The notes below the pieces were generated by a model. It ran no database searches and was not told the origin of the DNA. It saw only the letters and a list, made by a program, of their open reading frames with translations. Both the position numbers and the translations under genes were made by a program. From Ferruginibacter sp. (lineage in GTDB: Bacteria; Bacteroidota; Bacteroidia; Chitinophagales; Chitinophagaceae): a stretch of DNA of 64,000 nucleotides. The stretch lies in assembly GCA_028288705.1 (NCBI GenBank), contig JAQBNH010000007.1:310001-374000 (forward strand), in the 5' to 3' direction. Shown here piece by piece: positions 4,002 to 6,859 of this stretch. The stretch's first letter is position 1, and each line of letters opens with the position of its first letter.

Positions 4002-5189
4002 ATGAACGCCAATTTCGCAACCAGAATCGGAACAGAACTGGAAGAGATCCAAAACGCAGGGCTTTTTAAGAAAGAACGCGTGATCAGCAGTGAACAGGGT
4101 GCTGAGATCATCGTGAACGGACATACCGTTTTAAATTTTTGTGCAAATAACTACCTCGGGCTTTCTTCACACCCGAAAGTGCTGGAAGCGGCTAAAAAAT
4201 ACATCGACCTGCGTGGATTTGGCATGAGCAGTGTCCGTTTCATCTGCGGAACGCAGGATATTCATAAAGAGCTGGAACAAAAGCTCTCCACTTTTCTCGT
4301 AACTGAAGACACGATCTTATATGCGGCAGCTTTTGATGCAAACTGCGGTGTATTCGAGCCATTATTCAATGAGCAGGACGCGATTATCAGCGATGCGTTG
4401 AATCATGCCTCGATCATCGACGGCGTTCGTTTATGTAAAGCGCAACGGTACCGGTATGAACACAACAATATGGCTGATCTCGAAGAGAAGCTAAAAGAAT
4501 CAGCGCATCTCCGCAGCCGGATCATTGTAACGGATGGTTCATTCAGCATGGATGGAACCATCGCCCAACTCGATCAAATCTGCGATCTGGCGGATAAATA
4601 TGATGCGATCGTTATGATCGATGAGTGTCATTCCTCAGGTTTCTTAGGCAAGAATGGCCGCGGCACACATGAATACAGAAACGTAATGGGCCGGATAGAT
4701 ATCATCACCGGCACCCTTGGAAAAGCCCTGGGTGGCGCAAGCGGCGGTTTTACTTCAGGAAAAAAAGAGATCATAGAAATGCTGCGCCAGCGTAGCCGTC
4801 CTTACCTGTTTAGCAATACGCTCGCGCCGAGTATCGTTGGTGCATCGATCGCGGTTTTAGATATGCTGAGCCACACCACAGAACTGCGCGACAAACTGGA
4901 AGAGAACACGAAGTACTTCCGGGAGAAAATGACGGCTGCAGGTTTTGATATTAAACCGGGCGAACACCCGATCGTTCCTATCATGTTATATGATGCGGTA
5001 ATCGCGCAAAACTTTGCGGCTGCATTACTGGAAGAAGGTATTTATGTGATCGGATTTTTCTTTCCTGTAGTGGCAAAAGGTCAGGCGAGAATTCGCGTAC
5101 AGTTAAGCGCCGCGCACAACCGGCAGCACCTGGATAAAGCCATTGCAGCCTTCACAAAAGTGGGTAAGCAGCTGGGCGTTCTGAAATAA
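4002..5189 (+). CDS. kbl: Glycine C-acetyltransferase (2-amino-3-ketobutyrate CoA ligase)
   Basis: This 395-residue PLP enzyme belongs to the alpha-oxoamine synthase family. It shows the NNYLGLSSHP segment near residue 50, an IDECHSSGFLG block, and the PLP-binding lysine K241 in GTLGKALGGASGG. The length matches Kbl (about 398 residues). Kbl interconverts 2-amino-3-oxobutyrate plus CoA with glycine plus acetyl-CoA, the second step of threonine breakdown. No threonine dehydrogenase gene is seen nearby. KAS-type relatives (serine palmitoyltransferase, BioF) are possible, but the residues around the lysine and the GFGMSSVRFICGTQ block favour Kbl. A bidirectional terminator follows the gene. Confidence 0.88.
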   Translation: MNANFATRIGTELEEIQNAGLFKKERVISSEQGAEIIVNGHTVLNFCANNYLGLSSHPKVLEAAKKYIDLRGFGMSSVRFICGTQDIHKELEQKLSTFLVTEDTILYAAAFDANCGVFEPLFNEQDAIISDALNHASIIDGVRLCKAQRYRYEHNNMADLEEKLKESAHLRSRIIVTDGSFSMDGTIAQLDQICDLADKYDAIVMIDECHSSGFLGKNGRGTHEYRNVMGRIDIITGTLGKALGGASGGFTSGKKEIIEMLRQRSRPYLFSNTLAPSIVGASIAVLDMLSHTTELRDKLEENTKYFREKMTAAGFDIKPGEHPIVPIMLYDAVIAQNFAAALLEEGIYVIGFFFPVVAKGQARIRVQLSAAHNRQHLDKAIAAFTKVGKQLGVLK

Positions 5190-5212
5190 AGGAGCTCGGT
5201 TATGAAAATATA

Positions 5213-5244
5213 AAAAGGCTTTAGTTATCAAACCAAAGCCTTTT
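5213..5244. terminator. Bidirectional terminator between kbl and the TPP riboswitch
   Basis: AAAAGGCTTT (5213-5222) pairs with AAAGCCTTTT (5235-5244). On the plus strand it would end kbl. On the minus strand it lies 7 nt after the TPP aptamer and is followed by TTATATTTTC, so it could also be the expression platform of that riboswitch. Confidence 0.75.
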
Positions 5245-5250
5245 GTATTT

Positions 5251-5338
5251 CGGTGCTTTTTAATTCCCTGCGCCGGCATTACCCGGATCAGGTGATTTGG
5301 GTATAATCTCAGATTCTTTCGAAACACCCCCAACACCG
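5251..5338 (-). ncRNA. TPP (thiamine pyrophosphate) riboswitch, orphan
   Basis: Read on the minus strand, the segment carries all conserved THI-box parts in order: GGGGTG (5325-5330), CTGAGA (5307-5312), ACCC, then CACCTGATCCGGGTAATG, and GCGCAGGGAA ending at 5264. An outer P1 stem is formed by CGGTG (5334-5338) and CACCG (5251-5255). The aptamer binds thiamine pyrophosphate and normally controls thiamine synthesis or transport genes. Here no such gene follows: the next minus-strand feature is a terminator and then the antisense strand of kbl. It may be a relic of a lost gene, a free-standing regulatory RNA, or a source of kbl antisense RNA. Confidence 0.92.
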
Positions 5339-5482
5339 TAACGACTTTATTATAGTCAATTTCGTGCCAAACAGGCGCTAAGCGGTTGAATTTTTTGCAC
5401 AAAAAAGCAGTCGGTTAATACCTTTTGTAAGGGCTTAACTGGTTGATTATGCTTTACCTTCGCTAACGTTTAAGCGATACTC

Positions 5483-6859
5483 ATGTCAGAGAATGCAGAT
5501 TTATTTATAGCCAAAAGCACGATCAAGGCGGCCGACCTGGAGCATCGCCGTAAAATCAATTTTAATATCGGGCGCTACAATGCCGTGGTGCCTATGGGCA
5601 AGCAGCAATTTGAAAATGTTCATCTCGCACGGGAACAGGCAAAAAACGTAAAATGGCGAGCGATCGAAACGCTCGATCAGCAACTTGAAAACTTCGAACT
5701 GAATTTTACAAAGCGCGGTGGCAAAGTCATCTGGGCTGAAAATAGCGAACAGGCGATTGACGCGATCGTAGAGATCTGCAAGGCAAAAAATTGCAAAACG
5801 CTGGTGAAGAGCAAGAGCATGGTTACGGAGGAAATACACCTCAATAAAGCCATGGAGAAGCACGGTATCGAAAGTATAGAAACAGATCTTGGTGAATATA
5901 TCCAGCAACTGGACGATGAACCACCCTATCATATTGTTACGCCGGCCATGCATAAAAGTAAGGAGGACGTCGCCAAACTATTTAATGAAAAGTTAGGAAC
6001 ACCGATCGATCTTACGCCGACAGAACTTACACAGGTTGCCAGAAGGATCCTGCGGGAAAAATATGTTCAGGCAGAAGTGGGCGTAACGGGCGCGAATTTT
6101 ATCATCAGTGATATCGGCGCGGTTGCGGTCACCGAAAATGAGGGGAATGCCAGATTGAGTTGCGCTTTTCCAAAAACCCATATTGTAATTGTAGGTATTG
6201 AAAAAATGCTGCCCTCCGTTTCAGACCTCGCTCTTTTCTGGCCACTACTTAGTACGTTTGGTACGGGTCAGAAAATTACGGTTTATAACAGCATCATCGC
6301 CGGTCCGCGCCAACCGAATGAAACCGACGGCCCGGAAGAAATGTATGTGATCCTGCTGGACAATGGCCGGACGAACATTTTAAAAGACCCCGTTCAGCGG
6401 GAAAGTCTTTATTGCATTCGTTGCGGCGCCTGTTTAAATGCATGTCCGGTGTATAAAAATATTGGCGGCCATACTTATGGCGCTACTTACAGTGGACCGA
6501 TAGGAAGCGTGATCACACCGCACCTGCAAGGCATGGAAGACTTTAAGCACCTCAGCTTTGCCTCATCTCTTTGCGGAAATTGCACGGAAGTTTGCGCGGT
6601 GAAAATCAACCTGCACGAACTCTTGCTAGATAACCGGAAACAAGCTGTTGAAGAAGGACTGGCAACTTTTTCCGAGAAGGCGGCATGGAGGATCTGGAAG
6701 ATGGCCAGCCTTAGCCGGCGCATGATGAACCTGGGCTCCGGACCCTTAAAGAATAAGGTGGTCAATGGCTTATTTACCGATTGGAAAAAGCACCGGGGCG
6801 ATTTGCATTTCAGCCAGAAAACATTTAATCAACTCTGGAAAGAACAACGTAAGAAATAA
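5483..6859 (+). CDS. lutB: LutB-type iron-sulfur lactate utilization protein
   Basis: This 458-residue protein has an N-terminal LUD domain (about residues 60-290, with the GVTGANFIISDIGAV segment) and a ferredoxin-like C-terminal part. Cluster cysteines are visible at C311, C314, C317 and C321 (CIRCGACLNAC) and at C364, C367 and C371 (CGNCTEVC). LutB is the iron-sulfur subunit of the LutABC system that oxidises L-lactate to pyruvate. The expected partners lutA and lutC do not adjoin it; a LutC homologue lies at 26100-26729. A small hairpin just before the ATG could affect translation. Other electron-transfer roles for LUD proteins cannot be excluded. Confidence 0.88.
   Translation: MSENADLFIAKSTIKAADLEHRRKINFNIGRYNAVVPMGKQQFENVHLAREQAKNVKWRAIETLDQQLENFELNFTKRGGKVIWAENSEQAIDAIVEICKAKNCKTLVKSKSMVTEEIHLNKAMEKHGIESIETDLGEYIQQLDDEPPYHIVTPAMHKSKEDVAKLFNEKLGTPIDLTPTELTQVARRILREKYVQAEVGVTGANFIISDIGAVAVTENEGNARLSCAFPKTHIVIVGIEKMLPSVSDLALFWPLLSTFGTGQKITVYNSIIAGPRQPNETDGPEEMYVILLDNGRTNILKDPVQRESLYCIRCGACLNACPVYKNIGGHTYGATYSGPIGSVITPHLQGMEDFKHLSFASSLCGNCTEVCAVKINLHELLLDNRKQAVEEGLATFSEKAAWRIWKMASLSRRMMNLGSGPLKNKVVNGLFTDWKKHRGDLHFSQKTFNQLWKEQRKK

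Follow-up and report, generated by a model that had tools for sequence, protein, structure and literature searches.

The TPP riboswitch is one of the best-known riboswitch classes and is taught as a leader that acts in cis on thiamine genes. Metabolite-binding leaders can also yield small RNAs that act in trans, as described for SreA (SAM) and for Rli55 and EutX (B12) (PMC8383071), and a passage in Barrick and Breaker (2007) records a handful of aptamers distant from related genes, for which trans-acting RNAs or recent orphans were proposed (PMC2258182). In the DRAGIN study, free aptamer RNAs could alter the cell's content of their ligand (PMC6200808). The element described here resembles the TPP riboswitch (THI element, RF00059) in its CTGAGA core, and its copy in the window (the whole 64-kb stretch of Ferruginibacter sp. 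DNA analysed) scores above the Rfam cut-off, but it and its relatives have no downstream thi gene, a long P1, a terminator of their own and another promoter type. SreA, Rli55 and EutX are comparable by analogy as metabolite-binding small RNAs. They arise from riboswitch leaders and their targets are known; the present element belongs to the TPP ligand class and shows no sign of a leader role. Unlike the aptamers of Barrick and Breaker, the present elements form a recurrent set with a common promoter type and terminator. The analogy with DRAGIN lies in the free aptamer RNA, although its aminoglycoside aptamers were expressed on purpose and the relevant portion of that paper holds no natural TPP case (PMC6200808). 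In the open-licence literature, preprints excluded, we found no free-standing TPP small RNA described. We put at about 80% the probability that the locus is a free-standing, probably sigma-54-driven gene for a TPP-binding small RNA which controls no downstream gene; it is probably neither a broken leftover nor an antisense RNA to kbl. The locus comprises the following features.

4002..5189, plus strand: kbl, glycine C-acetyltransferase, convergent neighbour (NCBIfam TIGR01822, 688 bits against a cut-off of 493)
5213..5244, minus strand: intrinsic terminator hairpin and U tract (13 bp, by folding)
5251..5257, minus strand: 3' arm of P1, AGCACCG, pairing with 5338-5332
5307..5312, minus strand: CTGAGA, J3/2 of the aptamer, conserved core
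5332..5338, minus strand: 5' arm of P1, CGGTGTT, forming a 7-bp helix with 5257-5251
5341..5248, minus strand: TPP riboswitch aptamer RF00059 (cmscan, 61.4 bits against a gathering score of 54.3, E 1.3e-9)
5343, minus strand: predicted transcription start, placed from the -12 position; P1 begins 5 nt later
5354..5369, minus strand: putative sigma-54-like -24/-12 promoter element, TGGCACGAAATTGACT
5483..6859, plus strand: lutB/lldF-like iron-sulfur protein gene, divergent neighbour (NCBIfam TIGR00273, 457 bits against 444.8)

The first-pass annotation had described a complete TPP aptamer on the minus strand, followed by a hairpin terminator and by no thiamine gene. The RF00059 covariance search bears out the aptamer, which is the only match above any gathering score in the 64-kb window; the terminator is confirmed as a strong hairpin at 5244-5213 with a U tract, and at this locus no thiamine gene follows. 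Upstream, the element reaches beyond the interval first given, 5208-5338, as far as a promoter-like site at 5369-5354. The conserved aptamer core (CTGAGA in J3/2 and the P4/P5 block) is present, P1 has a mean pair probability of 0.88, and six bases link P1 to the terminator hairpin. Folding of 5343..5205 gave -49.9 kcal/mol (z -6.5), which none of 200 shuffles matched, and a separate fold run of the whole element gave a z of -5.0 against shuffles. The hairpin pattern AAGGCTTT-N4..20-AAAGCCTT occurs at one place only in the 3.72-Mb genome, the window terminator. On the plus strand, 5213-5244 reads as the same hairpin with a T-rich tail, and from its sequence this hairpin could also end kbl transcripts.

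The element had been placed antisense to the 3' end of kbl, whose nearest named relatives come from Chitinophagaceae and Sediminibacterium. The predicted RNA is convergent with kbl. As judged from sequence, its 3' end lies near 5208, which leaves about 19 nt between it and the stop codon of kbl (5187-5189); unless there is read-through, it does not overlap the coding sequence, and from its predicted end it would share with the kbl transcript at most the untranslated 3' end. A TPP-controlled antisense RNA that ties thiamine to glycine metabolism through kbl, as the earlier annotation had speculated, would fit the convergent arrangement and this overlap of untranslated sequence, but the predicted RNA ends before the kbl coding sequence, other copies of the element adjoin serS, ppa, DUF72, Usp and other genes, and no kbl is found among the first ORFs listed for the other 62 copies. 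We regard such a role as highly improbable.

We compared the positions of kbl and of TPP matches among genus relatives. The window genome contains one further TPP match above the cut-off, and the gene behind it encodes a TonB-receptor plug domain; the usual TPP sites of the genus, among loci read, are TonB-dependent receptor genes, PnuT-like transporter genes (PF04973) and thi operons. kbl was found with at least 82% identity in 53 of the 59 genus genomes sampled, the other six having distant relatives only. In 30 genus genomes other than that of the window, BLAST located the kbl 3' end and a lutB-like start on one strand and less than 1 kb apart; in 22 of them the two pieces lie within 250 bases. 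A kbl orthologue and an RF00059 match were both found in 76 genus genomes and stand side by side only in that of the window; the next nearest pair is 53 kb apart (G302), and in the remaining genomes the two are on different contigs. As this adjacency occurs in 1 of 76 genomes, the sequences indicate that, among the genus genomes compared, the window genome alone has gained the element here or has retained it. An RF00059-led thi gene at the kbl-lutB place was not found in the genus relatives, a sample without near sister species, and when 20 of the 80 kbl loci from named genomes were scanned with Rfam (flanks of up to 3 kb), no match exceeded any cut-off.

A BLAST search of 93 genus genomes with this region matched window positions 5208-5330, at 73%, to an unrelated place in G302, convergent with serS. 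Its RF00059 score of 49.6 is below the cut-off and its promoter spacing, 23 nt, is off. Differences between the two copies in P1, P3 and P4 are compensatory, with five pairs changed on both sides, three of them in P1, and 12 of 13 terminator pairs are identical. Over both sequences 98.5% of cells are paired, and a shift of the partner by 1-3 columns lowers this to 38-59%; in this comparison of only two sequences, 11 to 16 of 500 column shuffles reach the same values.

These comparisons bear on whether the element is a relic, left behind by a thiamine gene that has been lost and retained by chance beside a kbl terminator. With a second TPP riboswitch in the genome, ahead of a TonB-dependent receptor, redundancy is possible. 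Thiamine transport genes are reported to have been lost in gut Bacteroidetes, the TPP riboswitch being mostly kept on the splitting of operons, in an account that describes no orphan (PMC5613172). Set against this, relatives keep the kbl-lutB adjacency without an RF00059 match, the two most similar copies at different loci have five pairs changed on both sides at 98.5% pairing, and the 63 copies assembled below share P1 length and promoter type beyond the aptamer and terminator used for their selection. The reading first offered of a leftover from a thi operon once present here was dropped after the comparison of TPP and kbl coordinates in the 76 genomes, and we consider retention by chance very unlikely. 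The thi gene that the first-pass annotation had suggested looking for in close relatives did not turn up among the relatives sampled.

A covariance model that joins aptamer and terminator (R1), built from the window element and its G302 counterpart only, matched 159 of 394 family genomes at E<=1e-3, in part over its full length and in part over the aptamer only. The starting list of 88 loci comprised the full-length R1 places among the matches listed together with some comparison loci; 84 passed a filter for the CTGAG core (L291, L301, L310 and L315 were dropped), and a script found a terminator-like hairpin in 69 of these. L271, L275, L307, L311, L313, L314 and L318 were removed as thi-type, all seven having same-strand ORFs downstream that read like those behind ordinary TPP matches, and L293 was re-added after reading its sequence. 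At least 63 elements were retained. They come from at least 58 genomes in at least 27 genera, 56 of the genomes belonging to the 394 and the other two being G302 and G289. The promoter was no selection criterion for these 63 copies, although many promoters were already seen when the list was fixed; the copies are related and the counts made on them are not independent. Dozens of similar elements across the family thus support the stand-alone small RNA that had been among the original proposals.

CTGAGA and a loose core-block pattern occur in 63 of 63 copies, loci without CTGAG having been removed beforehand. The RF00059 gathering score was passed by 33 of the 60 copies scanned out of 63, including that of the window (16/20, 9/20 and 8/20), and 27 of the 60 fell below it. 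Several genomes have more than one stand-alone element at different loci, namely two each in G213 (about 5 kb apart), G352 and G129, and three in G038. In an alignment of the copies, the P3 region of L286, L298, L241, L247, L251 and L288 is extended by a long additional insert. Among 46 named genomes, R1 gave matches in 23, and 17 of the 32 places were read. Clear copies were found in Chitinophaga sp. Ak27 (L356) and Chitinophagaceae BIN25 (L357); the latter is probably L276 of G388, already counted, because the place has the same contig number and coordinates. The top-scoring place among the named genomes, in Fibrella, was rejected, as it carries a TTTACCTTTG-type promoter as in ordinary leaders. 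Five more cases without a thi gene were recognised by reading in other families of the class (G785, G481, G695, G494 and G786), the last with no TGGCA box in the stretch inspected. A second model (R2), made from the 63 sequences, was too general, matching 332 of the 395 class genomes; most of the 29 R2 loci inspected besides the window read as ordinary TPP leaders.

For contrast, we assembled an ordinary set of 90 RF00059 loci, the best-scoring ones returned with any neighbours, of which 87 with CTGAGA were counted. In four of the ordinary loci (L093, L097, L099 and L107) CTGAG is absent from the expected stretch, and the anchor may be wrong. One of the 87, L108, proved to be a free-standing copy at the same place as L260; promoters were therefore counted in 85, leaving out L108 and, on suspicion only, L223. 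The next mechanical ORF of at least 90 residues is on the same strand in 36 of the 63 copies and on the opposite strand in 27, as compared to the same strand in 87 of 87 ordinary loci. With one gene behind each of 85 ordinary matches plus PnuT as protein queries, no thiamine-type gene was found at E<=1e-5 among the same-strand ORFs in the 1.4 kb downstream of the 63 copies, the exceptions in this comparison being two alignments of 20 and 37 residues. The window element itself, being convergent with kbl, does not lie in the 5' leader of a same-strand thiamine gene.

P1 also separates the two sets. It could be parsed in 59 of the 63 copies (4 were unparsable), with a mean score of 7.8 against 5.1 in 83 ordinary loci (rank test, p about 1e-17); a score of at least 8 was reached by 27 of the 59 and by none of the 83, and a score of at least 7 by 42 of the 59 compared with 8.6% of shuffles. 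The P1 signal came with the introduction of distance limits, in a second analysis on the same data, an earlier parser that ignored the distance to P2 having given almost no signal (real mean 5.7, shuffled 5.5). Over the copies the pairing probability of P1 has a median of 0.79 and is at least 0.9 in 34%. In the folds of five copies, P1 and the terminator stand side by side with no shared strand and no antiterminator evident. For this reason P1, a helix often involved in switching, looks fixed in these models, and the terminator looks constitutive.

A cis-acting attenuator would call for a different picture, in which TPP regulates the terminator and read-through reaches a downstream gene that is the real target in some copies, for instance ppa in G281, DUF72 in L241 and L247, or a methyltransferase in G289. 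A same-strand ORF does begin within 150 nt of the terminator in 25 of the 63 copies. Yet the next ORF lies on the opposite strand in 27, that of the window included, the neighbour families vary, and the five folds, without overlap of P1 and terminator, offer no antiterminator. We judge attenuation, and equally the targets named, to be quite unlikely, and a TPP sink or sensor to be more likely than a cis switch.

The promoter region of the proposed small RNA gene sets the copies apart from ordinary leaders as well. The motif (T/C)GGCA(C/T) was found at -110 to -30 of the core in 54 of the 63 copies, leaving 9 without it, against 3 of 85 ordinary loci, whereas a TAnnTT(T/C)G box was found in 3 of 63 against 64 of 85; TAnnTTTG is the usual promoter box of Bacteroidetes (PMC7366714). 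The sigma-54 consensus for -24/-12 is quoted as TGGCAC-N5-7-TTGCT (PMC12316311), and in the window the -24 box is exact and the -12 box reads TTGAC. In 55 of the 69 terminator-bearing loci, aligned on GGCA (rows L260 and L304 being anchored on a GGCA close to the core), T predominates at position 11 (92%) and position 12 (83%), the commonest base at position 14 is C (38%) and A or T occupies position 15 (86%), in the register of a sigma-54 -12 box. Across the set this box is loose, with G at -13 in 21% and C at -12 in 38%. A start predicted 12 nt past the -12 box falls at a median of 4.5 nt before P1 (interquartile range 3 to 6, 50 copies).

A match to PF04552 identifies rpoN in the window genome (G000:C19:454268-454741, E 5.8e-54). 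As a discriminating gene rpoN was useless, being present in 87 of 93 genus genomes; because it is near universal in the genus, its co-occurrence with the element proves nothing. A motif whose -24/-12 elements are typical of sigma-54 has been mapped in Flavobacterium psychrophilum, and mutated at one operon; it precedes genes for protein quality, envelope stress and motility (PMC9723704), and a survey ties GrpE and GroES of Bacteroidota to sigma-54 (PMC12316311). Transcription of the free-standing element by sigma-54 is likely on this sequence evidence. The same free-standing RNA might instead have a promoter read by an ECF or another sigma factor, in agreement with the degenerate -12 box and with the genome-wide pattern: TGGCAYRNNNTTNNCW has 13 matches in the window genome, the window site included and most of them inside a mechanical ORF, compared with 14 for a backwards control, and thus no enrichment. 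TGGCA at -24, TT and (C)(A/T) in the sigma-54 register, a predicted start that falls at P1 and the motif known from F. psychrophilum (PMC9723704) argue against another factor, which we consider unlikely.

The neighbours of the proposed sigma-54-driven RNA genes were compared with Pfam for 103 of 126 ORFs, as raw counts with no background rate for such genes. Among the first 25 of 91 families, the commonest are DUF4142 (7), DUF305 (7, overlapping DUF4142 at least in L246), DUF763 (4) and Methyltransf_28 (4), followed by short-chain dehydrogenases (3), DUF892 (3), KGG (3), HisKA (3), Usp (2) and DUF2383 (2), and none of these 25 is a thiamine synthesis family. Our impression is that the neighbourhoods look like stress islands.

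Several single loci are worth recording. A transketolase gene, whose product uses TPP, adjoins one stand-alone element (L277:1878-3122), the only such case seen. In L316 (G281) the TPP element and terminator precede an inorganic pyrophosphatase gene (PF00719), and in L321 (G289) a gene that reads as a pyrophosphatase begins about 1.3 kb upstream on the same strand. The elements of L246, L270 and L280 (G106, G390 and G460) follow a same-strand stop codon by 25, 3 and 3 nt, the preceding gene of L246 being DUF4142, and have no TGGCA box; on account of this position and the missing box they may be elements of 3' untranslated regions. L258, L269, L276 and L248 have a second TGGCAT/TGGCAC/CGGCAC box directly past the terminator, as if the gene that follows shared the promoter class.

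The aptamer, P1, the terminator, the absence of a downstream thi gene and the recurrence at unrelated loci can all be read directly from the sequences. In the mechanism we propose, a sigma-54-type promoter, perhaps under stress, would drive transcription of an RNA that starts at P1 and is about 135 nt long in the window and roughly 110-160 nt over the copies. In this RNA a long P1 helix would close the TPP aptamer, and a short linker would lead to an intrinsic terminator that acts constitutively; the RNA would bind TPP. As to its function, our tentative first choice, at a little under even odds, is that the RNA holds TPP as a sink or reservoir, or that its lifetime depends on bound TPP; next comes a TPP-gated RNA that acts in trans on an mRNA or protein, which we regard as possible. 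We lean towards an RNA that holds TPP or reports it through its stability because little unpaired sequence is left for a seed. On balance we favour the existence of a natural Bacteroidota family of sigma-54-driven, free-standing TPP-binding RNAs without an expression platform, serving as a stress-induced TPP reservoir or a TPP-gated trans regulator.

Annotation based on Rfam would call such copies plain TPP riboswitches. If our reading is true, they would represent an aptamer living as an independent RNA gene, with the ligand-binding core kept, a fixed closing helix and another promoter type. Two questions would then become directly testable: do cells store or buffer a cofactor with RNA, and is TPP status coupled to a sigma-54 or stress response in Bacteroidota?
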